A stretch of 15,941 nucleotides of DNA from Paenibacillus sp. UBA6285 (lineage in GTDB: Bacteria > Bacillota > Bacilli > Paenibacillales > Paenibacillaceae), in assembly GCA_002438345.1 (NCBI GenBank), contig DJUJ01000115.1:19059-34999 (forward strand), written 5' to 3'. A program made the translations under genes and the position numbers. Under the pieces are notes generated by a model. The model searched no databases. It was given only the letters and a program-made list of their open reading frames with translations, and was not told the origin of the DNA. Positions within the stretch are counted from its first letter, which is position 1. Every line of letters begins with the position of its first letter. Positions 2,260-15,409 of this stretch are shown here, piece after piece.

Positions 2260-3576
2260 ATGGATCATAGCGAGGTTTTACAGCAAGCCTGTTACGTCTT
2301 TCTAAATGACCTTAATGATGAAATGAACCATTCATCTGCCCTTCAAATGGATGATCAAGAAATAATCCAACAATGCCGCCTTATCATAGATAAAGAACAA
2401 AATGCGCAAACCAAAACCTTTCTAGAAACCTTATCTGAGGTGATCCATGCTTATCTCACAGGGAGAGCTTCAGAGGATGCATTAAGGTTCTATCTGTCAG
2501 AACAATTCAGTATCGTGAACGAAGAAATCGACGGATTAATTCATGGGCTAGTTACAATCAAAAACCAGTCTTCAGATACGGGTATTTCACACCCAGCAGC
2601 TTATTCCTTAGCCGAGCATCCCAAGGTCAGTGTCATCATCACTACTTACAATAGAAAAGCATTCCTATATCAAGCGGTCCAAAGCATCTTAATGCAAGAC
2701 TATCCTCATAAAGAGATCACAGTGATCGACGATTGTTCTACAGATGGTACGGAAGAGTTAATGCATCAAAGCTTCGGAGACGAGACGCAGGTAATCTACA
2801 TGCGGAACGAAAAGAATAGCGGTCCTGGAAATAATCGCCGTAAAGCCTTTGCCGCTCATGGTGATGGTGACTATGTTCTTTTTCTCGATGATGATGACTA
2901 TCTGATTGACATGAATTATTTAAGTAAGGCTGTGGAATTTCATAGTCTCCATCCAGAAATATCATTTGTGGCCGCTAATGTGTTTCTTGAGTATTCCAAG
3001 GTTAAACAACTGAAAATCTCTAATCTGCAGCTTAGCAGTATTATTAAGAAACGCGATTATTTCATGAATTTCGAGAAAAAAGGATACCCAAAGCCAGCCT
3101 CAACTTTAACTACTGTCTTTAAGCGTGAGGCCTTAATGGCTATGGATATCCTGAATATGAACATGGTCAACGATGCTTCTATTTATCTGCGTTCCTTGTT
3201 GGTCGGTGATGCTGGCTTCATAGATACCCTTGCAGGTGTGTATAGATTACACGGGGACAACATTACCTTTAATCTGAGCCAGGGATTCTTAATTGAGAAT
3301 CTGGAGGAAAAGCTGTTGATTAAGAATATGGCCGTTCAGAAATATGGATATAGCGAGCAGGAAATGACCGAATGGTTCAACCATAATGCTTATGATACGA
3401 TCTCATACTATTTATTAAATTCTGCAAAAGACGCTACAGACTTTAAATTCATGTATCACTGGGCCCTTAACCATTGCCCGCCGATCTACAATACATTAAG
3501 AAATGAATTTCGTATGAAGCTTATTAAAAAACAATTATTACGGATTTCGTTACTTCGAACGCTGCTCGGAAGATGA
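2260..3576 (+). CDS. Glycosyltransferase family 2 protein with N-terminal helical extension
   Basis: 438 residues. Residues from about 120 form a GT-A glycosyltransferase domain: HPKVSVIITTYNRKAFLYQAVQSILMQDY, then VIDDCSTDGT, then the metal/nucleotide-sugar site LFLDDDDYLID (about 207-217). It should add a sugar from an NDP-sugar to a growing glycan at the cytoplasmic membrane face. The first ~115 residues are charged and helix-like, without recognised motif, and may be a docking or oligomerisation part. No membrane segment is seen. The start at ATG 2260 is set by a CAGGAGGA site at 2246-2253; a GTG at 2224 in the same frame lies inside the flippase gene and lacks such a site. It is the last gene of the surface-polysaccharide operon, and its 3' end overlaps the opposing aldolase-like gene by 27 bp. 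Confidence 0.88.
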   Translation: MDHSEVLQQACYVFLNDLNDEMNHSSALQMDDQEIIQQCRLIIDKEQNAQTKTFLETLSEVIHAYLTGRASEDALRFYLSEQFSIVNEEIDGLIHGLVTIKNQSSDTGISHPAAYSLAEHPKVSVIITTYNRKAFLYQAVQSILMQDYPHKEITVIDDCSTDGTEELMHQSFGDETQVIYMRNEKNSGPGNNRRKAFAAHGDGDYVLFLDDDDYLIDMNYLSKAVEFHSLHPEISFVAANVFLEYSKVKQLKISNLQLSSIIKKRDYFMNFEKKGYPKPASTLTTVFKREALMAMDILNMNMVNDASIYLRSLLVGDAGFIDTLAGVYRLHGDNITFNLSQGFLIENLEEKLLIKNMAVQKYGYSEQEMTEWFNHNAYDTISYYLLNSAKDATDFKFMYHWALNHCPPIYNTLRNEFRMKLIKKQLLRISLLRTLLGR

Positions 3577-4662
3577 TTCACGCATTAGCTTATCAAGCAG
3601 CAGTAAGAATCCTTTCACCTCTTCTTTAGGGATGTCGGCGTATTTGTCTCCAATACTGATCTCACAATAAGAACTATGGTCTCCTGTTGGTCTTATTGCT
3701 GCGCTTAATCCGATTCCTGTTGCCTCATATAGAGAAGACAGAATCGGTTCAATGCTCTCCCTAGACATTTGAAAATGCATATGAAACATGTTAGAGATAG
3801 GCTCAGTGGGCATAGTAGTCACGGCGTGACATTGATTAACTAAGGCAGCAAGCTCCCTGGCTCCTTCATAATACTGCTGCATCTTATCTACTCTTTGCCG
3901 GTAGTAGTGATCTGAGGAAATAATATATGGATACAGACTGATTAGGTCTCCACCATGACGCCGTTTCCATATCTTCGATTGCTTCGTAAAATCCTCACTG
4001 CCTGCCAGAATCGCGCCTGCAATTCCCCCGATACCTTTATACAGAGAGATATAGACACTATCAAAGAGTGCGCAGATCTCAGCAGCTGTCTTGCCATAAT
4101 AGGGAAGCGTCTCAAGCAATCTTGCGCCATCCAAATGCAGCTTAATTCCCCGAGTACGGCAATGTGCAGAAATCGCTTCAAGCTCCTTATACTCCGGTAA
4201 CTGTCCACCAATCTCGCGCTGCGGCAATTCAAGCAGCAGACAAGCAATATCTTCCTTCATATGTAATACATCATCCAAGGTGATTAGTCGATCCTTGTCC
4301 GCAAGTAGGACAGGCTCGATATGATGCAATTCCTTCAACCCATCCTGCTCATGGATCTCCAAATGACATAAAGGATGATAGGCAACGCTCTTGAGTCCTT
4401 TTTCATCACACCATATTCTTAAGGCGATTTGTTGTGCCATCGTTCCACTCGGAAAGAAGACTGCTGTTTCTTTTCCCAAAAGCTTCGCCATCTCCGACTG
4501 AAAATCCTCGATAACCTTTCCAGAGCCATAAATATCAGATGCTGTACTGTTCTCTACAGCTTCAAAGGCTTCCTTCAAGACTTGAACATCTCTATTCCCA
4601 TGTCCTACGATTCGATAAATCGTTTCATTAAAGGCCTCTTGCACTGATTTTTTTCCGTTCAT
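3550..4662 (-). CDS. Threonine aldolase / beta-eliminating lyase family PLP enzyme
   Basis: A fold-type I PLP enzyme of 370 residues from ATG 4662. Seen: DIYGSGKVIEDFQ and the cofactor-phosphate stretch VFFPSGTMAQQ, the PLP-ring aspartate in HLDGAR (176-181) and the Schiff-base lysine in ISLYKGIGG (K209). Relatives cleave L-threonine or L-allo-threonine to glycine and acetaldehyde, but this branch (SLYKG rather than SLSKG) is mostly uncharacterised, so the substrate is unsure. Two starts are possible: ATG 4662, with GAAGGGG about 10 bp upstream, or TTG 4716, with a weak GATGGGA, which adds 18 residues without family character. I prefer the ATG. The gene faces away from udk across a short shared upstream region and runs into the 3' end of the glycosyltransferase gene, overlapping it by 27 bp. 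Nothing ties it functionally to either neighbour. Confidence 0.85.
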   Translation of the reverse strand: MNGKKSVQEAFNETIYRIVGHGNRDVQVLKEAFEAVENSTASDIYGSGKVIEDFQSEMAKLLGKETAVFFPSGTMAQQIALRIWCDEKGLKSVAYHPLCHLEIHEQDGLKELHHIEPVLLADKDRLITLDDVLHMKEDIACLLLELPQREIGGQLPEYKELEAISAHCRTRGIKLHLDGARLLETLPYYGKTAAEICALFDSVYISLYKGIGGIAGAILAGSEDFTKQSKIWKRRHGGDLISLYPYIISSDHYYRQRVDKMQQYYEGARELAALVNQCHAVTTMPTEPISNMFHMHFQMSRESIEPILSSLYEATGIGLSAAIRPTGDHSSYCEISIGDKYADIPKEEVKGFLLLLDKLMRESSSEQRSK

Positions 4663-5700: not shown

Positions 5701-5730
5701 TCGCCATTACAAATCTTCAAACGTTATAAT
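5701..5730 (+). promoter_or_regulatory. Probable promoter of the amidohydrolase/Mur-ligase cluster
   Basis: TCGCCA (5701-5706, 4 of 6 matches) and a perfect TATAAT (5725-5730) are 18 bp apart. Transcription would start near 5737, leaving a leader of only about 20-27 nt before the first gene. Confidence 0.5.
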
Positions 5731-5757: not shown

Positions 5758-6408
5758 TTGCATATCTTATCTCTGATCGAAAAGTATGAGTTACAATTCT
5801 CTAATAATAATTATTTTGGCGATATCGGGCTTGACCCCTCCTACTCTATTGTAGAAGGCTCACTTCCTATACTTGTGTCTGCTCCGCATGCCATTAACCA
5901 CTATAGAGAACATGCTGTAAAACCTGCGGACATGTATACAGGTTCTCTTGCACTACTGTTACAAAAGCTCACAAATTGCCACTGTATCTATTCCAATAGC
6001 TTCTCCAAAGAAGACCCTAATTACATCCTTGGCGGAGAATATAAGGCTGCGCTTGGAACACTTGTCAAAGAACATCAAATTAACTTTGTTATAGACTTGC
6101 ATGGTGCCTCTAAGGATAGAGAATTCGATATTGATTTAGGTACATTACACGGAACATCCATACAAGACAATAATATAAATGAAGTCATACGTATCTTTTT
6201 CAATAATGGTATTACCAATGTTCTTCAAAACCACACCTTTTCTGCATCTCATCCCGGAACGATCACTTCGTATTCCGCCAAAGAATTGTTAGTTCAAAGT
6301 ATTCAAATTGAAATTAATCGAAATTATCGCAACCCGAAATCATTTGATTTATTCCAAAAAACCATTCATTCCCTTGAACAAATCATCAATCAATTGGGAG
6401 GCGCCTAA
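5758..6408 (+). CDS. N-formylglutamate amidohydrolase-like protein
   Basis: About 216 residues. Motifs resemble the N-formylglutamate amidohydrolase family, metal-dependent hydrolases that remove formyl or other acyl groups from glutamate-type amides: VSAPHAINHYR (H44), KPADMYTG, the metal-site-like VIDLHGA (H115) and a C-terminal IQIEINRNYR (E185, R188, R191; counted from TTG 5758). No signal peptide is evident. The start is a puzzle. TGA at 5755-5757 closes the frame upstream, so TTG 5758 is the first option, but it sits right against the AGGTGAT Shine-Dalgarno sequence (5752-5758). ATC at 5764 has the proper spacing (about 9 bp). The 1-bp gap to the next gene suggests translational coupling. 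The ligase-rich neighbourhood argues for trimming an amino-acid conjugate rather than histidine breakdown. The family call is fairly firm; the substrate is unknown. Confidence 0.72.
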   Translation: MHILSLIEKYELQFSNNNYFGDIGLDPSYSIVEGSLPILVSAPHAINHYREHAVKPADMYTGSLALLLQKLTNCHCIYSNSFSKEDPNYILGGEYKAALGTLVKEHQINFVIDLHGASKDREFDIDLGTLHGTSIQDNNINEVIRIFFNNGITNVLQNHTFSASHPGTITSYSAKELLVQSIQIEINRNYRNPKSFDLFQKTIHSLEQIINQLGGA

Positions 6409-6409
6409 C

Positions 6410-7522
6410 ATAAATATCGAACAGACCTTCACTATATTGGACAAACAAAGTTATACCGCCCGGGAAGAAATCACGATGAACCCCGATGAGCTGGTCGATT
6501 TAGGCTTAGTCCATCATATCTTTGTCGATCTTGCAGCAGTGAATGGCGCTCAGGTTAGTTGTTTACTTTTATCTAAAAGTGATATCCCAAGAGGCAGTAT
6601 TCAATTATCCAAAAGAGCAAAGGACAAGCTAGGGGACTGCCCCATTACAGGATTAACCATCACTAAACCTGAGTACAACACAATCCTTCGGGGAATTCCT
6701 AAAGTGGACGAGATTGCCAAACCTTATGTCAAAGCATGTCCAACGCTCGTCCGTAAATATTCGAATCATGTCGAACTGATTAATCCTAAGAATGGCTTTC
6801 GGGTTAACCTAACTTTAAAAGAAGATGACACAGCCAAGCCGAATACCCTTTATTTCAACAGATACATCATGTTGTTGCTTGAGACCCATTCTGCTGAGAA
6901 CGATCAATTGATCATTACCCGTGCAAGAACACCTCATCAGCCCACGCCAGGCATACATAAACTTATAAATCTGGGAATCAAACGGCCCTTAACCGCATTA
7001 GGAAACTTTTTCATTGGCAAAAGAGAGCTTACCCTAAGAGTAGGACATCCCTACCCTTTTGATGAGCACCAAAATCTATGCCGAATTCATCCCAATGTTA
7101 GAAAATTGCTGGGCATGGAAGAGACCGATAAAATCGTCATTACCTATAACAACAAACAAATAACCGTCCCCATCTTAGATATAGACACTGAGCACATTGC
7201 CCAGTTAATCAAACTTAATGAGGAGAATGAGCAGCTTAAATTTATCGACAGCCACTTATTTATCGGAATCACCGCTTTGTCACGAAACGAATTAGAAATC
7301 CCTAGTATCGGCACATCGGTTACCGTAAAGAGAAGCATGAACTCCCTATTCTTAAAACACTTAAATAAGCTGGTCTTGCCCGTAATCGCTTTGTTGTTTA
7401 CAGTAGTACAGCTGTATAAGGATTTGAACTGGAGCATCGCTTTGACCGTTGCTATTTCTCTGGTACTACTTCCGATAATCATCTATACAACACTATCTGA
7501 AGAACGTGCAAAAATTAACTAA
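6410..7522 (+). CDS. Uncharacterised protein: beta-rich soluble body plus two C-terminal membrane segments
   Basis: About 370 residues; I do not recognise the family with confidence. The body has two stretches that read like double-psi beta-barrel (CDC48-N / aspartate-decarboxylase-like) modules: RGSIQLSKRAKDKLGD (61-76), and HPYPFDEHQNLCRIHPNVRKLLGMEETDKIVITY further on; this is pattern reading only. The C-terminus holds two hydrophobic helices (about 321-336 and 341-360) and a short charged tail, so the protein is probably membrane-anchored with its body on one side. No enzyme motif is seen. The start is probably ATA 6410: GGAGG (6397-6401) is 8 bp upstream and the previous stop is 1 bp away. 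Later in-frame starts (TTG 6437, ATG 6476) lack a good ribosome site, and the TTG at 6308 lies deep inside the previous gene. It may be a scaffold or membrane partner for the ligases around it. Confidence 0.7.
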   Translation: MNIEQTFTILDKQSYTAREEITMNPDELVDLGLVHHIFVDLAAVNGAQVSCLLLSKSDIPRGSIQLSKRAKDKLGDCPITGLTITKPEYNTILRGIPKVDEIAKPYVKACPTLVRKYSNHVELINPKNGFRVNLTLKEDDTAKPNTLYFNRYIMLLLETHSAENDQLIITRARTPHQPTPGIHKLINLGIKRPLTALGNFFIGKRELTLRVGHPYPFDEHQNLCRIHPNVRKLLGMEETDKIVITYNNKQITVPILDIDTEHIAQLIKLNEENEQLKFIDSHLFIGITALSRNELEIPSIGTSVTVKRSMNSLFLKHLNKLVLPVIALLFTVVQLYKDLNWSIALTVAISLVLLPIIIYTTLSEERAKIN

Positions 7523-7536
7523 ATGGAGCGATTATC

Positions 7537-8886
7537 GTGGAATTCACTTCACAATCCCAGGTAGAAGATATGATCTACAGCTCTTATCTAAGAGCCATTA
7601 ACAACATCACAGAAACTTTGGATGAACAAGTTAGAAGACCGGAATTAACCAGAGCATTGCTGGATCTAGTCAGAAGTCCGGATCGAGATCAACAATACAT
7701 ACTAGTCACAGGCAGTAAAGGTAAAGGCTCCACCTCTAGATTTATCTCCTCTTTGTTAAGTCATCTAGGATTTAAAGTGGGCTTATTCACCTCTCCTCAT
7801 CTGGTGGATTTCAACGAAAGAATACGGATTGATGGGCAGGCTATACCCACAGACGATTTTGTACGATTAGGAAATGTAGTTCGCGAGGGATTCCAAACGA
7901 TTGAAAATCAGCTTGCCGCTGATGAGTATCAAGGTCCTGTTGGGGTGGGTCTGGCAATTGCGACGTTGTATTTCAAGGAGAATCATACCAATTTCAATGT
8001 GATTGAATGCGGAAGAGGCGGAAGGTTTGATGACACAAATGTCCTGAAGAATGATTGGGCTGTCATTACTCCGATTATGGAAGAACATGTAGCTAATTTG
8101 GGACCTGACCTGAACAGTATTACACTACATAAACTGGGCATCGTCAAAAACAAGGCTACTAACGTCTATATTAGCAAACAGAAATCGAGCGTACTTGCGA
8201 CTATAAAGGCGAACCTAACTTCCAATTCTGTGCAGTATTATGAGGAGCAGTTCTGGGCTGACTCTATTACAATAACACCCGTTGGAACTACTTTTGATGT
8301 TCGGACAAATCAAGGGGTTTACCCCTCCTTAACAATTCCGTTATTGGGACAATTTCAAGCTCTAAATGCAGCCACGGCAGTCGCACTATGTGAGGATATT
8401 ACAGGTGGTCCCTTGAATAGGGAACTCGTTCTCAATTGCTTTGCAAAACTGCAATGGCCGGGGCGCTGTGAAGTGATCTGCCATGATCCATTAACGATTA
8501 TTGACGGAGCTATTCATAGAGAATCTGCAAGCTATTTGGCCGAACTAATTCAACTAGTGAATCCTGACCGCAGTCGACCTGTAACTTCAATCATCGGTGT
8601 TCCTAAAGATAAAGATTACACAGGGGTCATCGAGGTCATGAGTACGGTATCGGATCAATTAATCGTTACAAGGCCTGATATCAGTCATCTTTCTTTTCCT
8701 ACAGATGCACTCCATGTTGCCAAGCGTTTTATCGAAAAAAGTTCCGAATCCCCCTACTTGGAGGATGCTCTTACGCACATTAAAGCACGCTCGTCTTCCG
8801 AGATTTTTGTAATTGTCGGTACGCAAACCTTTATCGGAAATGCCAAAAGATTATTCGGGCAATCGCTGCTCGATATCGGCTTATAG
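7537..8886 (+). CDS. Mur ligase family protein, FolC-like (not a canonical folylpolyglutamate synthase)
   Basis: A 449-residue ATP-dependent amide ligase of the Mur/FPGS fold, which activates a carboxylate as acyl phosphate and joins it to an amine. Seen: P-loop TGSKGKGST (58-66), GLFTSPHLVDFNERIRIDG (82-100), FNVIECGRGGRFDDTNVL (153-170), PIMEEHVANLG (179-189) in place of the FolC DHxxxLG, KLGIVK (199-204) with the position of the carbamylated lysine, then WPGRCEVI and DGAIHRES (from 323) where FolC has DGAHNP. The catalytic core is kept, but the substrate-side motifs differ, so I read it as a paralogue with another substrate. GTG 7537 follows TGGAG (7524-7528) with good spacing and lies 14 bp after the previous stop. 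Its 3' end overlaps the opposing ATP-grasp gene by 6 bp. Confidence 0.85.
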   Translation: MEFTSQSQVEDMIYSSYLRAINNITETLDEQVRRPELTRALLDLVRSPDRDQQYILVTGSKGKGSTSRFISSLLSHLGFKVGLFTSPHLVDFNERIRIDGQAIPTDDFVRLGNVVREGFQTIENQLAADEYQGPVGVGLAIATLYFKENHTNFNVIECGRGGRFDDTNVLKNDWAVITPIMEEHVANLGPDLNSITLHKLGIVKNKATNVYISKQKSSVLATIKANLTSNSVQYYEEQFWADSITITPVGTTFDVRTNQGVYPSLTIPLLGQFQALNAATAVALCEDITGGPLNRELVLNCFAKLQWPGRCEVICHDPLTIIDGAIHRESASYLAELIQLVNPDRSRPVTSIIGVPKDKDYTGVIEVMSTVSDQLIVTRPDISHLSFPTDALHVAKRFIEKSSESPYLEDALTHIKARSSSEIFVIVGTQTFIGNAKRLFGQSLLDIGL

Positions 8887-9678
8887 CTTCTCAAAGCGCA
8901 TGAGAATTACTTCCTTATAAAGGTCAGATAGAGCTGGCACTTCGCTTGGATTCTGCTTACAATATTCATCTAGCATGACCTTATGATTAACCTCGATAAC
9001 CATGAGGCCTTGATTAGTCTCTAAGATATCTACGGAACAGAAATCAAGGCCCATCGTTTTAGAAGTCTGGGATGCAAGCTCCGCCAGCGCCACTCGTTTG
9101 GCCTGATCGCTAACCTCAATAGCAACAGCCCCGTTAATCAAATTGTGCTTCCAGGAATGAACTCTTTTTTTGCCAAGGAATACACGCGCCTGATGATTAA
9201 AGGTTACGATTCTATACTCAATCTCCGCTTCATAATAAGGTCCTATCGCCCCATTAAGCTGCAAAGAAAATAATACATCTAGCTTCTCGTGTAAATCTTC
9301 CACCTCGTTGACCTTATACACATGATTCCCCTGTGCCCCGTTGTCCTGCTTCACAACCACATGCCCATTGAATTTATAAAAAGAACGCTCAGCTAATAGG
9401 TAGGGATTTGAACGATTAAATCTGGAATCCGGATGTGGCAAATAGAGATGTTCAACGGCAGGTATTCCGCTCTTGTGCAAGACGTCATAAGTTAGAGATT
9501 TACTCATCGCAATGATCGTTGAGGCACTGCTGTTCAGACCTACTTCGGCGTCTACCATCACAAAGGATTTGGCTCCATCTGTCGCTCTATACACAAAATT
9601 CGGCGTGATTTCTTCAAAGGTAATGCCTGAGGATTTCACGGAATGCTGGATCATTTTTAAGTACGTTCTTGTCGTCAC
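8881..9678 (-). CDS. ATP-grasp family ligase (RimK/CphA-like)
   Basis: A compact 265-residue ATP-grasp enzyme; such enzymes join a carboxylate, via acyl phosphate, to an amine or thiol. Seen: NSSASTIIAMSKSLTYDVLHKSGIP (49-73), which resembles the segment before the ATP lid in cyanophycin and glutathione-type ligases, the ATP-binding VVVKQDNGAQGN (107-118) with K110, EYRIVTF (R156), and the metal-binding residues in CSVDIL (D217) and VIEVNHKVML (E229, N231). The N-terminal pre-ATP-grasp part is short. GTG 9678 is set by GAGGAG on the minus strand (9684-9689) with 5-bp spacing. It has its own probable promoter. It is tail-to-tail with the Mur ligase gene, overlapping by 6 bp; the pair recalls the ATP-grasp plus Mur-ligase fusion of cyanophycin synthetase. 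The substrate cannot be told from sequence. Confidence 0.85.
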   Translation of the reverse strand: MTTRTYLKMIQHSVKSSGITFEEITPNFVYRATDGAKSFVMVDAEVGLNSSASTIIAMSKSLTYDVLHKSGIPAVEHLYLPHPDSRFNRSNPYLLAERSFYKFNGHVVVKQDNGAQGNHVYKVNEVEDLHEKLDVLFSLQLNGAIGPYYEAEIEYRIVTFNHQARVFLGKKRVHSWKHNLINGAVAIEVSDQAKRVALAELASQTSKTMGLDFCSVDILETNQGLMVIEVNHKVMLDEYCKQNPSEVPALSDLYKEVILMRFEKL

Positions 9679-9947: not shown

Positions 9948-9997
9948 CTTTCCTAAATTCCTAGTAATCTAGCATATTAGTAGTGTTAGTACGTGCT

Positions 9998-10019
9998 AAA
10001 GTTAAAGCGCTTAAACTTT
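9998..10019. promoter_or_regulatory. LacI-family operator 2
   Basis: A 22-bp near-perfect palindrome with core AAAGCGCTTAAA and the same flanks as operator 1; only one symmetric base pair of positions breaks the symmetry. Its centre is 72 bp from that of operator 1, and it ends 23 bp before the first permease start. The core also partly matches CcpA cre sites, but the cre-conserved outer bases are not present. Confidence 0.75.
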
Positions 10020-10042
10020 TTAATGTGAGAGGTTGGTGTGTC

Positions 10043-10936
10043 ATGATCAATCGCGAGAACAGGCGGCAGACGTTCTACATGTATCTGTTCATTTCCCCTT
10101 GGATTCTCGGCTTCCTTGTATTCGCCCTTTATCCTATTTTATCATCGCTTTATTTTAGCTTTACTGATTATGACATTATCCACCCGCCCAAGTTCATCGG
10201 ACTCGCTAACTACACAGAGATGTTTCACAACGAACTGTTCTGGAAATCAGTAGTAGTCACACTGAAATACACCTTTATCGGCGTACCTATCCAGCTTGTG
10301 CTTGGTCTTGGATTCGCACTGCTTCTTCATCAGACGATCCCGCTTCGCGGCTTCTTCCGAACTGCAATGTATTTCCCAAGTATGGTATCTGGCGTGGCTA
10401 TGTCGCTTCTATGGTATTGGATCTTCAATCCACAAATCGGACTCTTCAATTATATCCTCTCCTGGTTTGGTATTCATGGACCGGCTTGGCTGATGAACCC
10501 AGACACCGCACTGTATGCTCTGATTATCATGACCTTCTGGACCGCAGGATCAGGAATGATTCTATTCCTTGCAGGTCTGCAAGGCGTACCGGCAAGCCTG
10601 ATTGAAGCCGCTAACCTTGACGGTGCTGGACGCTTTAGAATTTTTGTAAACATTACCTTACCTATGATCTCTCCTGTGCTGCTCTTTCAGCTAATTATGG
10701 GACTGATTGATTCCTTCCAAGTCTTTACCCAAGCTTTTGTTATGACCCAAGGTGGTCCGAACTACTCTACTTGGTTCTATGTCTACAATTTATACACCAG
10801 TGCTTTCAAAGAATATCGCGCCGGTTACTCCTCAGCCCTGGCTTGGGTGTTGCTCATCGTAGTTATGCTATGCACGGCACTTATTATGAAATTATCTAAC
10901 CGTTATGTTCACTACGAAGGAGGCGGACGCAAATGA
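10043..10936 (+). CDS. ABC sugar transporter permease (MalF/UgpA type)
   Basis: 297-residue inner-membrane permease, one half of the transmembrane channel of a CUT1 carbohydrate importer. Seen: an N-terminal helix FYMYLFISPWILGFLVFALYP, about six membrane helices in all, LKYTFIGVPIQLVLGLGFALLL, and the EAA loop EAANLDGAGRFRIFVNITLPMISP that docks on the ATPase. I chose ATG 10043 with GAGAGG (10027-10032) upstream; the longer open frame from 9983 would start inside the operator region and adds residues unlike any permease N-terminus. It is the first gene of the operon, directly under control of the promoter and operators upstream. It overlaps the second permease gene by four bases (ATGA). No ATPase gene follows, so a shared MsmX-type ATPase encoded elsewhere is likely. 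Confidence 0.93.
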   Translation: MINRENRRQTFYMYLFISPWILGFLVFALYPILSSLYFSFTDYDIIHPPKFIGLANYTEMFHNELFWKSVVVTLKYTFIGVPIQLVLGLGFALLLHQTIPLRGFFRTAMYFPSMVSGVAMSLLWYWIFNPQIGLFNYILSWFGIHGPAWLMNPDTALYALIIMTFWTAGSGMILFLAGLQGVPASLIEAANLDGAGRFRIFVNITLPMISPVLLFQLIMGLIDSFQVFTQAFVMTQGGPNYSTWFYVYNLYTSAFKEYRAGYSSALAWVLLIVVMLCTALIMKLSNRYVHYEGGGRK

Positions 10937-11811
10937 GTACAGTTAGAGCCCTAAGCCACCGCCCCAAAGATACAAGACGTCGCCGGAAAATGGAACCGAT
11001 TAAGATATTAAGCTTTATCACTTTAGTAGTTACAACATTTCTGATGTTACTCCCGTTGTTCTTCATGGTCTCCACTTCATTGAAGTCGAAGCGTGAGATG
11101 CTAAAATTCCCTCCCTCCTTTCTCCCGGAGAGTTGGCAGTGGAGCAATTACACGGAAATCTTTGATACTCTACAATTCGGTACACTTTACAAGAACAGTC
11201 TAATTATCGCCGGCTTTAGCGTTGTGGGTACTCTGATATCATCAGCGCTGGTCGCCTATGGGTTCGCCAGATTCAGAGGTAAAGGCAATCAAATTTGGTT
11301 CATCATGCTGCTAAGCACCATGATGTTGCCATATCCGGCTATCATGATTCCGCAATTTGTACTCTTTTCTAAGATGAATTGGATTGATACCTTCTTTCCG
11401 CTAATCGTGCCTGCGTTCTTCGGCTCAGCCTATAACATTTTCTTGCTGCGCCAATTCTTTTCCACCCTGCCTGAAGAGCTGTTTGATGCTGGACGCATTG
11501 ACGGCTGTGGTGAAATAAGGATGTGGGCTACCATAGCCCTCCCACTCTCCAAACCAGCTCTCGCAACTGTGGCCATCTTTGCCTTCATCTACAACTGGAA
11601 CGATCTACTCACACCGGTGCTTTACTTAAGCTCGTCAGATAAGTTCACACTTCCAGTCGGTATGTCCTCCCTTACCTCTTCACGGTTTCGCATTCCGCCT
11701 TGGCATCTGCTAATGGTTGCGTCCGTACTAGCTATGGTTCCTATCGTTACGCTATTTGCTGTAGCTCAGAAGCAGTTCGTTGAAGGTATTGTACTTACGG
11801 GAATCAAGTAA
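10933..11811 (+). CDS. ABC sugar transporter permease (MalG/UgpE type)
   Basis: 292-residue partner permease. Seen: basic N-terminal cytoplasmic tail (RPKDTRRRRK), first helix IKILSFITLVVTTFLMLLPLFFMVSTSLK, the periplasmic-side MLKFPPSFLPESWQWSNYTEIF segment typical of MalG relatives, LPYPAIMIPQF, a divergent EAA loop (EELFDAGRIDGCGEIRMWATIALPLSKPAL) and a terminal FVEGIVLTGIK. The start ATG overlaps the stop of the first permease (ATGA), with AAGGAGGCGG at 10917-10926, so translation of the two is coupled and gives a 1:1 heterodimer. The EAA loop has DAGRIDGCG where EAARIDGAG is usual; this is a mild divergence and probably still functional. A small hairpin follows the stop before the binding-protein gene. 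Confidence 0.93.
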   Translation: MSTVRALSHRPKDTRRRRKMEPIKILSFITLVVTTFLMLLPLFFMVSTSLKSKREMLKFPPSFLPESWQWSNYTEIFDTLQFGTLYKNSLIIAGFSVVGTLISSALVAYGFARFRGKGNQIWFIMLLSTMMLPYPAIMIPQFVLFSKMNWIDTFFPLIVPAFFGSAYNIFLLRQFFSTLPEELFDAGRIDGCGEIRMWATIALPLSKPALATVAIFAFIYNWNDLLTPVLYLSSSDKFTLPVGMSSLTSSRFRIPPWHLLMVASVLAMVPIVTLFAVAQKQFVEGIVLTGIK

Positions 11812-11815
11812 TAAT

Positions 11816-11829
11816 CCGCCATTAGGCGG
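11816..11829 (+). other. Intercistronic hairpin between permease and binding-protein genes
   Basis: CCGCC (11816-11820) and GGCGG (11825-11829) close an ATTA loop. There is no T-run, so it is unlikely to terminate; it may protect or separate mRNA segments so that the binding protein is made in excess. The role is inferred from position only. Confidence 0.45.
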
Positions 11830-11863
11830 CCAAATATAATTCAAATCATGGAGGGTTTAGCTA

Positions 11864-13249
11864 ATGAACAAGAACAGGAAAACCATTGCGTGTTTACTCG
11901 CAACAACCATGCTCGTTGTTCTGGTATTGTCAGGCTGTAGCGGAGGTAAATCAGCAGGTAACACGCTATCTGAAGAAAACGGCGGCTCTACTAATTCCGG
12001 AGGCAAAGCGGAAACGGTAACGATTACCCATTACACGATTGATTCAGAAGACCGCACATTTGTCGAAAAGTTAATCCCTGATTTCGAGAAACAACATCCG
12101 AATATTAAAGTCAAAGTGGAAAAAGCACCTTACGAACAGTTCGATAGCAAGCTACAAACGCTAATTGCTGGAGGTAAATCGCCCGATGTGACAAGTCACT
12201 GGGGGTATGGCGGCTTCGCAGAATACTATAACAAGGGTATGCTACTCGATATGACCGACCTTATGAAAGAGGATGGTTTCAAGGCAGAGGATTACAACAT
12301 CCCAGAGAATTTGATGAACATCTACAAGGTTAAAGACCATACCTATGGCATCCCGGTTAATATGTATGTCACCTTGATGCTTTATAACAAAGACATGTTT
12401 GATGCTGCCAGCCTGTCTTACCCAACAAGCGATTATGAAGATAAGAGTTGGACCTATGACAAAATGGTGGAGAATGCCAAAAAGATGACACTGGTATCCG
12501 ACGATATTGCCAAGACACAATACGGCGTAGACTTTACCTGGTCTGAACGGGATATGCGGCCGTTATACTTTGGAGCTGAGCCTTATTCAGAGGATACATG
12601 GACCAATGGCGGTGTGCCATCCGAGACCTATTTTGACTCCCCAGAGGTAATCGCCGCATACAACAAGCTGTTCGATCTCGTCTTCAAAGATAAAGTATCT
12701 CCATCCACCGAGTGGAGCAAAAGCGTAGCCGGTCAGAACGGCGATCCCTTTGTTGCAGGTAAAATCGGTATGTCTATCGGAGGCTCATGGAACCTCGCAG
12801 GCGCTAATGACTTCCCATTCAAGATCGGTGTTGCTGCTGTACCATGGGGCGGAAATGACAAAGTACGGAGTACTCTGTATGTTGACCCGCTGTTGATCTT
12901 GAAAGACTCCAAGCATCCGAAGGAAGCTCTTGAATGGATTAAATACCTGATTACAACCGAAGTGCAAGAGAAATCCATTGACCTGAGCGGCGGTAACCCA
13001 CCGGTCAATACAGAAGCTGCGGAAGCCTACTATAAACATTTTGACGGTATCGATCCACAAGATATCAAGAATGTCTACGAGGGCGCTGTCAATTACGGCT
13101 TTGAATCCTACAACCACTTAATCACTAACTACTCGCAAATTAATGACATGTTTATTAATGAATTACAGCCCGTAGAGACTGGACATAAGACGGTTGAAGA
13201 GGTTATGACGACGATTCAGAAGAAAGTAACAGAAATCATTCATCGATAA
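11864..13249 (+). CDS. Sugar ABC transporter substrate-binding lipoprotein
   Basis: 461-residue extracellular solute-binding protein (family 1, SBP_bac_1). It has a lipoprotein signal peptide: basic MNKNRK, a hydrophobic core and lipobox LSGC with the lipid-anchored Cys at residue 25, then a Gly/Ser-rich linker (about 26-50) before the binding domain that starts at VTITHYTIDSEDRTFVEKLIPDFEKQHPNIKVKVE. Further family marks are KLQTLIAGGKSPDV, YGIPVNMYVTLMLYNKDMF and FVAGKIGMSIGGSWNL. It captures the sugar outside the membrane and delivers it to the two permeases encoded just upstream. GGAGGG at 11850-11855 with 8-bp spacing supports ATG 11864 and strong translation. The aromatic residues suggest an oligosaccharide ligand, but which one is not readable from sequence. 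Confidence 0.93.
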   Translation: MNKNRKTIACLLATTMLVVLVLSGCSGGKSAGNTLSEENGGSTNSGGKAETVTITHYTIDSEDRTFVEKLIPDFEKQHPNIKVKVEKAPYEQFDSKLQTLIAGGKSPDVTSHWGYGGFAEYYNKGMLLDMTDLMKEDGFKAEDYNIPENLMNIYKVKDHTYGIPVNMYVTLMLYNKDMFDAASLSYPTSDYEDKSWTYDKMVENAKKMTLVSDDIAKTQYGVDFTWSERDMRPLYFGAEPYSEDTWTNGGVPSETYFDSPEVIAAYNKLFDLVFKDKVSPSTEWSKSVAGQNGDPFVAGKIGMSIGGSWNLAGANDFPFKIGVAAVPWGGNDKVRSTLYVDPLLILKDSKHPKEALEWIKYLITTEVQEKSIDLSGGNPPVNTEAAEAYYKHFDGIDPQDIKNVYEGAVNYGFESYNHLITNYSQINDMFINELQPVETGHKTVEEVMTTIQKKVTEIIHR

Positions 13250-13270
13250 TACAACATTATACTTGATACC

Positions 13271-13296
13271 TATGCCGTCCCTTTAGGGACGGTATA
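13271..13296 (+). other. Strong intercistronic hairpin after the binding-protein gene
   Basis: TATGCCGTCCC (13271-13281) pairs with GGGACGGTATA (13286-13296) around a TTTA loop, giving an 11-bp stem with one G-T pair. There is no T-run after it. It lies 22 bp after the binding-protein stop and may stabilise the upstream mRNA or lower read-through into the regulator gene. Confidence 0.55.
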
Positions 13297-13392
13297 CCTG
13301 CTTGAAACCATACGTTTAGCGGACAATCAGCCAACCCTGTATACTAAAGGTAGAATACAGGATCGGAAAATCTGCCCCAAGGAGAACTAGAG

Positions 13393-14382
13393 ATGAAAGT
13401 GAGTATTTTTGATGTAGCTAAAAAATCCGGACTATCCGTCGTAACCGTATCCCGGGTCTTAAATGGAGCCAAATCGGTACGAGAAAATAATCGACAAAAG
13501 GTACTGGATGCAATCAAAGAGCTGGATTATCACCCCAATGCCGCTGCACGCAGCCTCGCCAGCGGTAAGACTGGCATTATCGGTTTGATTGTCACGACCC
13601 TGCAGGATTCCTTTTTTGATGCGGTGGTCAAAGAGCTGAATGAGATCCTAGCGATGCATGGATATTTTTTAGCCATATCCATCTCAACCGGCATTGAATC
13701 CGATGATAGCCACTATTTGATTCAGGAGGATCGGGTAGATGGATTGATCTTGCTCTCTCCAATGGAAGAGGACAACTATATTGTTGAATTAAAGCGGCGA
13801 GACATCCCTTATGTACTGATCGATAATCAGAAACCGGAGAATGATACTTACTCCATCACAATCGACAACTTTAAGGGAGGCTATACAGCTGCCAGTCATC
13901 TGCTAGAGCTCGGACATACGTCCATCGCCCATGTCTGCGGTCACGAAATGTTCCGTAGTACGCGCGAGCGTCGCAGTGGATTTATACAGGCGCTTCAGGA
14001 AAAAGGGCTCACCCCGTTCGAGATCGTACATGGCGATTTTGATATCGGTGTGGGGTACGATACCTGCAAGCGTTGGCTAGACGAAGGAAAGCTGCCTTCC
14101 GCGGTATTCGCCGGCGATGACAATATCGCCCTTGGGGTCATTAACGCACTGATGGAAGCCGGCATCCGTGTGCCGGAACAGGTAGCTGTGGTCGGCTATG
14201 ATGATCATTACATTGCTTCACAGCTTCATCCACATCTGACAACGATACGTCAGCCTTCAGATAAAATCGGGCTCGCAGCCGCAGATATGCTGCTCAGACG
14301 CATCTCTGGAAAGATGAAACGTGGAGCCGGTATGCGGATTGACCCAGAAATTATTGTGCGTGAATCTACCACAGCCAAGTAG
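13393..14382 (+). CDS. LacI family transcriptional regulator
   Basis: 329-residue LacI/GalR repressor. The N-terminal helix-turn-helix and hinge are clear: VSIFDVAKKSGLSVVTVSRVLNG (3-25), then YHPNAAARSLASGKTGIIGLIV. The rest is a periplasmic-binding-protein-like sensor domain, with VAVVGYDDHYIASQLHPHLTTIRQP near the C-terminus, typical of the family. AAGGAG at 13379-13384 sets ATG 13393. It lies inside the sugar operon, after the transporter and before the kinase, so it most likely binds the two palindromes at 9926 and 9998 and is itself under their control. The inducer is probably the imported sugar or its phosphorylated form. Whether it also has its own promoter in the 143-bp gap upstream is unclear; I see TATACT (13340-13345) but no good -35. 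Confidence 0.93.
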   Translation: MKVSIFDVAKKSGLSVVTVSRVLNGAKSVRENNRQKVLDAIKELDYHPNAAARSLASGKTGIIGLIVTTLQDSFFDAVVKELNEILAMHGYFLAISISTGIESDDSHYLIQEDRVDGLILLSPMEEDNYIVELKRRDIPYVLIDNQKPENDTYSITIDNFKGGYTAASHLLELGHTSIAHVCGHEMFRSTRERRSGFIQALQEKGLTPFEIVHGDFDIGVGYDTCKRWLDEGKLPSAVFAGDDNIALGVINALMEAGIRVPEQVAVVGYDDHYIASQLHPHLTTIRQPSDKIGLAAADMLLRRISGKMKRGAGMRIDPEIIVRESTTAK

Positions 14383-14413
14383 ATTACATACTATACACTA
14401 GGAGTGATAACCA

Positions 14414-15409
14414 TTGACTTACTACTTAGGGATCGATGGCGGAGGTACAAAAACCTATGCTCTGCTAAGCGATGAACTTGGTAATGTTCTCGGTAAAGGC
14501 AAGAGCGGTAACGGTAACCACCAGACTGGCGCCCTTGAGGCAGCTAACAGCATTCGAGAGGCCACATTCGGAGCACTGGCAGAGGCTGGACTCCGATTGG
14601 AAGACATCAAGCACGCCTATCTTGGGCTTGCCGGTGCCGACCGCGAGGCCGATTATGCCATTCTCCATCCTATGATACGCGAGATCGGATTTACCAATTA
14701 CACCATTAACTGTGACACCATGATCGGACTACGAGCAGGGACGACTCGCCCTTATGGAGTTGCACTAATCTGCGGCACTGGTACCAATTCAGCAGGAAGA
14801 AATTTGCAGGGGGAGCACTATCAGTGCGGCGGATTCGACTACATGTACGGTGATTTCGGTGGGGGCGGTGCACTCAACATTGAAGTCTTTCGCTCCGTCA
14901 TAAGAGCTTGGGATGGACGAGAACAGCCTACCCTCTTGACCGAACTTTTGCTCAAAATGCTAGGTTATGAGAAAGTTGCACATATGTTTAATGATTTCCT
15001 CGATCATTGGAAACAGGTGCCTGTGCACGCTGCACGTTTGCTCTTCGAAGCGGCTGCTGAGGGAGATGTCGTAGCCTTAGAGATTCTAAATCGGCAAGGC
15101 GTTGAATTAGGAAAATCCGCCGTTGCTGTCATACACAAGCTTGGCATGGAACAAGATACCTTCGATGTGGTTCTGGCGGGAAGTCTGCTAACCCGTGGGG
15201 ATCGCGGCTGGATTCGCGAACCTATTGAGAAGGCCGTGCAGGCTGCAGCTCCACAAGCAACTGTGGTGACCCTTGCCACAGAGCCTGTAGTAGGTGCCGT
15301 ATGGTCAGCGATGGATCATGACGGTTTGACTCTTAGTAGTGAAGTCTATGAGAAAATGCGGCAATTTCAAGATTATGAATCTATCCAACAACAAATAAGA
15401 CAGGAGTGA
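14414..15409 (+). CDS. BadF/BadG/BcrA/BcrD-type sugar kinase (N-acetylglucosamine kinase-like)
   Basis: 331-residue member of the ASKHA fold (actin-like ATPase) in the branch that includes N-acetylglucosamine, glucosamine and MurNAc/GlcNAc kinases. Seen: phosphate-1 loop YLGIDGGGTKTYALLSD (4-20), AYLGLAGADRE, NCDTMIGL holding the likely catalytic Asp (about 101), CGTGTNSAGR (phosphate-2, about 120) and VVLAGSLLTRG (adenosine motif, about 252). The usual GDEGSG is GDFGGGG here, a divergence near the substrate side. TTG 14414 lies 9 bp after AGGAG. It sits between the regulator and a GH4 6-phospho-glycosidase gene, so it probably phosphorylates the imported sugar to make the substrate that GH4 needs. 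Free GlcNAc, or the non-reducing sugar of a disaccharide, are both possible substrates. Confidence 0.85.
   Translation: MTYYLGIDGGGTKTYALLSDELGNVLGKGKSGNGNHQTGALEAANSIREATFGALAEAGLRLEDIKHAYLGLAGADREADYAILHPMIREIGFTNYTINCDTMIGLRAGTTRPYGVALICGTGTNSAGRNLQGEHYQCGGFDYMYGDFGGGGALNIEVFRSVIRAWDGREQPTLLTELLLKMLGYEKVAHMFNDFLDHWKQVPVHAARLLFEAAAEGDVVALEILNRQGVELGKSAVAVIHKLGMEQDTFDVVLAGSLLTRGDRGWIREPIEKAVQAAAPQATVVTLATEPVVGAVWSAMDHDGLTLSSEVYEKMRQFQDYESIQQQIRQE

Follow-up and report, generated by a model that had tools for sequence, protein, structure and literature searches.

Among the described systems closest to the one considered here is cyanophycin synthesis, whose plan combines one ATP-grasp and one Mur ligase module with a hydrolase. 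We analyzed a stretch of 15,941 nucleotides from Paenibacillus sp. UBA6285 (hereafter the window), which is contained in a 6.11 Mb complete chromosome and has its nearest named protein relatives in Paenibacillus. Four open frames at window positions 5758-9678 (genes A, B, C and D; the prefixes G, L and P below label genomes, loci and proteins) encode a hydrolase, a protein with a predicted barrel and membrane hairpin, a FolC-related Mur ligase and an ATP-grasp ligase. A, B and C lie on the plus strand and D on the minus strand, with a tail-to-tail overlap of 6 bases between C and D. The frames were found where a preliminary description of this DNA had placed four adjacent genes with a convergent D, and its family calls agree with ours: A belongs to PF05013, C to the Mur ligases (folC) and D to the RimK-like ATP-grasp proteins, and B matches no family over a cut-off.

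The cassette shares with cyanophycin synthetase and cyanophycinase the set of ATP-grasp ligase, Mur ligase and hydrolase, but its ligases are separate genes that are not always paired and score 27.0 and 26.1 bits against a cut-off of 850 (TIGR02068). For the PgsB model TIGR04012, C reached 14.1 against a cut-off of 222.7. A cyanophycin or capsule synthase was rejected because C and D fall far under the model cut-offs. A known anti-phage defense system was also rejected, as PADLOC-DB gave one weak match for B (E 0.027) and none for A, C or D up to E 1. No name for this gene set was present in the titles or displayed abstracts of the papers listed in searches of open-licence literature. As far as gene context carries, the idea of an undescribed amidoligase-amidohydrolase system is borne out and made more precise.

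That the four genes belong together as a patchily distributed, recurring cassette is well supported. When 40 genomes were searched with all four proteins, close homologues of each came from one and the same set of four (G000, G001, G007 and G023); over 60 genomes, A and B again had close homologues in these four, besides distant ones in G042 and, for A, a weak match in G038. The order A-B-C plus convergent D recurs in Pseudalkalibacillus hwajinpoensis at identities of 48% (B) and 58% (C), with different flanks, and also in a more distant locus of the genus Paenibacillus (L042); the flanks of the cassette differ among Paenibacillus, Pseudalkalibacillus and Sporosarcina. The shared genomes and the recurring order with other flanks indicate, on a point that the preliminary description had asked to be checked, that the four genes co-occur beyond chance. 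The distribution is sparse: B was detected in 4 of 37 genomes of the genus (60-genome sample), 10/392 of the order and 2/398 of the phylum, and a pattern-limited scan of an 84,980-species collection gave 4 B loci.

Several other arrangements exist. The order is purU-A-ligase-ligase-B in G042 (L029), D-A-B-purU in G733 (L043) and A-B-C in L144, and in ten loci (L059, L086 and L133-L140) the gap between valS and folC is occupied by A, B and a pair of ATP-grasp ligases, in either of two orientations. Five of the ten (L136-L140) also carry a FolC paralogue that is nearest to C of the window (43-44%), and in nine of the ten B and folC are divergent and 19 to 142 bases apart. The identities of valS and folC in these loci were confirmed on samples by family models; the labels spoVID, ysxE, comC and Opp were assigned by eye, and the Opp gene of L058 was checked.

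To count the associations, we used 17 non-redundant B loci, from which nine near-identical Paenibacillus copies represented by the window (L003, L007, L008, L030, L031 and L044-L047) and one locus on the same contig as L009 (L142) had been dropped; the counted loci are related by descent, and no probability is attached to the counts. A lies within 1.9 kb of B in all 17 and directly adjoins it in 15. This proximity holds by construction in the eleven loci found via A, and it holds in 6/6 of those found via B or given, all from Bacilli (the window, L009, L010, L042, L029 and L043). An ATP-grasp ligase is present in 15/17 loci and the FolC paralogue C in 9/17. The core of the set is therefore A and B, and not the two ligases, to which the preliminary description had assigned the building of a conjugate; several relatives have two ATP-grasp ligases. 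Folate genes are frequent neighbors: within 3.6 kb of A, purU occurs in 2/17 loci, the housekeeping folC in 10/17 and any of C, housekeeping folC or purU in 16/17.

The converse does not hold for A. In 26 loci that have an A-family gene but lack B, BLAST at 1e-10 against reference proteins found nothing matching ATP-grasp ligases, FolC or PurU inside 7 kb; distant ligases, such as the PgsB-like Mur ligase of L099, escape this test. These 26 include two loci each from G1232 and G1245 and two with less than 7 kb on one side (L083 and L148), and the neighborhoods were taken from part of the matches in the A searches (20 and 16 regions, others earlier). The homologues are not mostly apart in the sense first asked, A being near B in every B locus; the A family also occurs in 26 loci without the other three. 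A Halobacterium relative of B without an annotated A alongside also speaks against the set as first described.

A passes the PF05013 (FGase) gathering score (32.9 bits, cut-off 28.9), several of its relatives score under it, and no signal peptide was apparent in A. By structure prediction and fold search, A shares its fold with the poly-gamma-glutamate hydrolases and the N-formylglutamate amidohydrolases. By sequence, the search for solved relatives of A returned only noise, and neither PF05908 (poly-gamma-glutamate hydrolase) nor any N-formylglutamate model in NCBIfam was matched by A of the window up to E 0.1; one relative, P0071, passes PF05908 (24.6 against 22). A differs from PghP and PghL (YndL), with which it shares 15-18% identity, in lacking the PF05908 match and in its unmatched substrate residues, and from N-formylglutamate amidohydrolase in being shorter (216 against 251-271 residues). 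H44, H115, E185 and D/E58 are kept in 56/56 A-family sequences. Taking as a comparison set the zinc, catalytic and substrate residues given for PghL in the passages of PMC6506827 that treat them, these four are plausible counterparts of the zinc ligands (two His and one Glu) and the catalytic Glu, paired by order and not by superposition.

Gamma-glutamyltranspeptidase genes occur in 6 of the 26 B-less loci, three of which also have poly-gamma-glutamate capsule-type genes (L146, L147 and L099, the PgsB-like Mur ligase of the last adjoining A) and three oligopeptide-type transporter ATPase genes (L058, L083 and L143). A search with a second A type matched 30/377 genomes, signal-like-start and long-fusion types included. 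A tree of A places L029 within the type II clade (support 1.000); L043 falls outside that clade, and its precise position has poor support.

B has no match over cut-off in a profile scan. Its mechanical frame is opened by a TTG at 6308 and ends at 7522, but this TTG is probably not the true start; an ATA codon at 6410, behind a GGGAGG that is conserved in most of the close relatives compared, fits better. Directly behind the stop of A, the codon is ATA in the window, L007, L008, L044, L045 and L046, ATC in L031, ATT in L030 and ATG in the more distant L042, which suggests a non-AUG start for B in the window and its close relatives. Two C-terminal hydrophobic helices are predicted to form a membrane hairpin, which supports the membrane part of the earlier proposal that B ties the process to the membrane. 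The second half of B is predicted to adopt a CDC48/VCP-type double-psi barrel. It is this fold that likens B to the CDC48/VCP N-terminal domain; in contrast to CDC48/VCP, B lacks AAA modules and has the membrane hairpin in their place, and the Bacilli members scanned are under the PF02359 cut-off. B of the window did not match PF02359, and its relative P0016 reached 30.1 against a gathering score of 35.1; no AAA ATPase domain was found in B. The first half may be a second barrel, as suggested by the model, by fold alignments starting from residue 1-4 and by two CDC48_N stretches in a haloarchaeal relative. An internal duplication visible in the sequence was rejected, since the halves are unalignable (hhalign probability 0.14%).

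A and B are fused in one protein (P0017). At two further loci, one beside folC, A is paired with X728, a large protein with a hydrophobic C-terminal part that replaces B (L053:7322-9508 and L141:9391-11538); in L053 the valS-folC gap is where the X728-A pair lies. That this 728-aa protein of L053 might be a form of B was considered and rejected on comparison. L029 also encodes an AAA protein, 6.5 kb downstream of B, which was not taken as a cassette member.

C matches the Mur ligase family PF08245, passes TIGR01499 (folC) with 236.3 bits against a curated cut-off of 162.65, and has the Lactobacillus casei folylpolyglutamate synthetase 1fgs as its best PDB match (E 1.8e-40). It keeps the GKGS, TSP...ERI, HK.GI.K and GR motifs of FolC. 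The cassette sequences differ from FolC in forming a separate, single clade (support 1.000, stem 1.31) apart from 15 other FolC, in scoring 236-261 bits on TIGR01499 (three cassette FolC) against 384-400 (four FolC from valS-folC loci), and in changes to the P-loop motif (GTNGKGS to GSKGKGS), the G[LMV]GG motif (to GRGG), the DH loop and DGAHN. The clade comprises two subgroups, one of the Paenibacillus loci with Pseudalkalibacillus and L144 and the other of L136-L140; thus, C is probably old in the cassette. The motif changes point to an altered substrate or chemistry, which cuts both ways for folate. The possibility, raised at the outset, that C is the strain's sole FolC was rejected: a second FolC lies at G000:C1:4893586-4894740, and all 40 related genomes have a FolC that is 29-33% identical to C, to which G000, G001, G007 and G023 add C or its close homologue.

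D passes the RimK-like ATP-grasp model PF08443 (43.6 bits, gathering score 21). Its best NCBIfam model is rimK_fam (TIGR00768), which it does not pass (58.6 against 143.4), so that D is not, as had been considered, a known ribosomal-protein ligase by this measure. Matches in the PDB to RimK (5zct and 4iwx) are weak (E 0.003). K110, R156, D217 and E229, which we take to have the usual ATP-grasp roles, are invariant among 5 sequences. D resembles the alpha-L-glutamate ligases RimK, MptN and CofF in its ATP-grasp domain, and some relatives pass the rimK_fam cut-off, whereas D of the window is short (265 aa) and below it. The first ATP-grasp ligase passes in both L029 (200.2) and L137 (202.4); the second passes in L029 (145.1) and fails in L137 (121.4) and in another relative (75.0). 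The MptN (tetrahydromethanopterin ligase) model matched less well, with 33.9 bits for D and 126.4 for the first L137 ligase against a cut-off of 350.

The preliminary description supposed that a conjugate is built by the ligases and trimmed by the amidohydrolase. This gains weight because of the fold of A and the gamma-glutamyltranspeptidase and capsule-type neighbors of its relatives, but the context suggests folate over a free polymer. Gamma-glutamyl chemistry is likely. The reading we favor, at somewhat less than even confidence, is that the cassette is a membrane-tethered, transferable system for editing glutamyl tails, most probably those of folates. C would use ATP to attach an amino acid, glutamate most likely, through a gamma linkage to an acceptor that resembles a pterin or folate, and the RimK-like ligase or ligases (D) would, also with ATP, add alpha-linked glutamate or another amino acid. 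A, as a putative zinc hydrolase of the gamma-glutamyl hydrolase/N-formylglutamate amidohydrolase fold, would cleave gamma-glutamyl amides and remove the added residue, and B, through its VCP-type barrel and hairpin, would keep enzymes or substrate on the cytoplasmic side of the membrane. We infer all of these reactions, and the acceptor, for which folate is the best guess because of the genes neighboring the cassette. These include purU in two loci of different arrangement (L029 and L043); G733 has two PurU genes over the family cut-off (C8:26326-27159 and C29:181505-182341), the second of which overlaps the end of B. A more specific version is possible though doubtful: folate tails would be edited with the cassette's own FolC paralogue, RimK-like ligases would make alpha-linked or otherwise capped tails, A would be a folylpolyglutamate hydrolase with the fold of poly-gamma-glutamate hydrolases and the barrel would keep the pool at the membrane. 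Alpha-linked glutamates have been reported in the folate tails of Escherichia coli, according to the part of PMC1971073 that deals with them.

A number of observations weigh against the favored reading. Four cassette genomes (G1353, G1528, G1338 and G1534, the last with L010) have no PurU over cut-off, so the cassette is independent of purU, and other cassette genomes have PurU away from the cassette; G042 has no purU besides the adjacent copy. Because the ten valS-folC loci may trace back to a small number of insertions, the figure of 16/17 exaggerates the independent evidence; A without B is also present in this gap (L053). C is missing from 8/17 B loci, and the Sporosarcina locus L010 shows only A and B. 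The DGAHN histidine is lost from C (DG[AS]I[HN] in 10/10 cassette paralogues, against DG[AS]HN in 15/15 other FolC), and thus C may not act on folate. The top two fold matches of A are of the N-formylglutamate amidohydrolase kind and not PGA hydrolases. To our knowledge, B has no place in ordinary folate biochemistry. Lastly, the PghL substrate residues His77, Thr79 and Ser80, as far as they are covered in PMC6506827, have no clear counterpart in A.

Under a reading without folate, which we consider unlikely, C would have left folate and the cassette would make and recycle a glutamyl or other amino-acid oligomer or conjugate, either cyanophycin-like or a short cytoplasmic gamma-glutamate product. 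The combination of Mur ligase, ATP-grasp ligase and hydrolase does recall the cyanophycin plan, the motif changes of C (P-loop, GLGG, DH loop and DGAHN) would suit a new substrate, and A is akin in fold to poly-gamma-glutamate hydrolases and has relatives by capsule-type genes, including the one beside the PgsB-like Mur ligase. However, C is absent from 8/17 loci although the ATP-grasp ligase stays in most, C retains other FolC motifs (TSP...ERI and GR), C and D are far under the cyanophycin synthetase model and C far under PgsB, and both purU in two loci and the recurrent position beside folC are left unexplained. The latter difficulty also applies to modification of a protein or peptide, where RimK-like ligases would add glutamyl or other residues to a protein, A would remove them and B would recognize the modified protein at the membrane. 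This is improbable in our judgment, even though passages in PMC4431377 describe RimK as placing glutamates on ribosomal protein S6, the titles of the structure matches have the p97 N domain binding protein partners, and ATP-grasp ligases are more constant than C (15/17 against 9/17); the cassette genes include no AAA ATPase or protease, small substrate proteins not having been searched for.

The link to folate could also be accidental: the gap between valS and folC would then be a hot spot for insertions and not a functional site, and the cassette an accessory island serving some other purpose. Patchy occurrence (10/392 genomes of the order), the X728-A cargo at the same place in L053 and the differing flanks among Paenibacillus, Pseudalkalibacillus and Sporosarcina would all fit. 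We give this explanation little credence, as the cassette includes a paralogue of FolC and, in G733, an additional copy of purU, it occupies the valS-folC gap in two orientations, and no folate gene was found near the 26 B-less A loci. Phage or plasmid cargo was rejected: the phage collection gave nothing for B, and the plasmids a single distant match to it, in Halobacterium; A had no match among plasmids and one in the phage collection, in an unannotated record.

The features of the window are collected in Table 1. The promoter-like site upstream of A is weak, since the scan gave 9 sites against a shuffle mean of 12; its TATAAT stretch is also present in L031, L030 and L007.

Table 1. Coordinates of the cassette genes and associated signals in the window.
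Feature	Position	Strand	Basis
Promoter-like site upstream of A, TCGCCA-18-TATAAT	5701..5730	+	consensus scan, 10/12 matches
Gene A, 216 aa, zinc-hydrolase fold (N-formylglutamate amidohydrolase/poly-gamma-glutamate hydrolase type), TTG start	5758..6408	+	
GGGAGG, likely ribosome-binding site of B, within the 3' end of A	6396..6401	+	sequence
Gene B, 370 aa, CDC48/VCP-type double-psi barrel (predicted) and C-terminal membrane hairpin, probable ATA start	6410..7522	+	
Gene C, 449 aa, FolC-derived Mur ligase paralogue with altered motifs, GTG start	7537..8886	+	
Gene D, 265 aa, short RimK-like ATP-grasp ligase, convergent with C, GTG start	8881..9678	-	

To the right of the cassette (window 9983-15409) lie genes for ABC transporter permeases, a solute-binding protein, a LacI-type regulator and a BadF-type/N-acetylglucosamine-kinase-like protein. 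This right flank is kept in L030, L044, L046 and L047, where the left flank differs from that of the window. Relatives were also seen in phage and plasmid sequences: the phage record MT838589.1 (5,087 bases, human feces, unannotated) carries a relative of A at 3550-4092 on the minus strand (34% identity over 83% of A). A Halobacterium hubeiense plasmid carries a relative of B (L179:6725-7807), and a Haloarcula marina plasmid a relative of the Halobacterium protein (L180:6130-6810); no A, C or D is annotated alongside in these two haloarchaeal loci.

If the reading of glutamyl-tail editing is correct, some Bacilli would use a transferable set of genes to remodel the glutamate tails carried by folates or a related molecule. 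It would then become testable which enzymes form alpha-linked tails, reported for E. coli folates in that part of PMC1971073, and a VCP-type barrel without its ATPase would have a role. In the more specific version, the cassette would provide enzymes for non-gamma linkages in folate tails and a bacterial counterpart of the eukaryotic gamma-glutamyl hydrolase. Even with a non-folate acceptor, a conserved amidoligase-hydrolase cassette that is nameless in the searches made is a good target.

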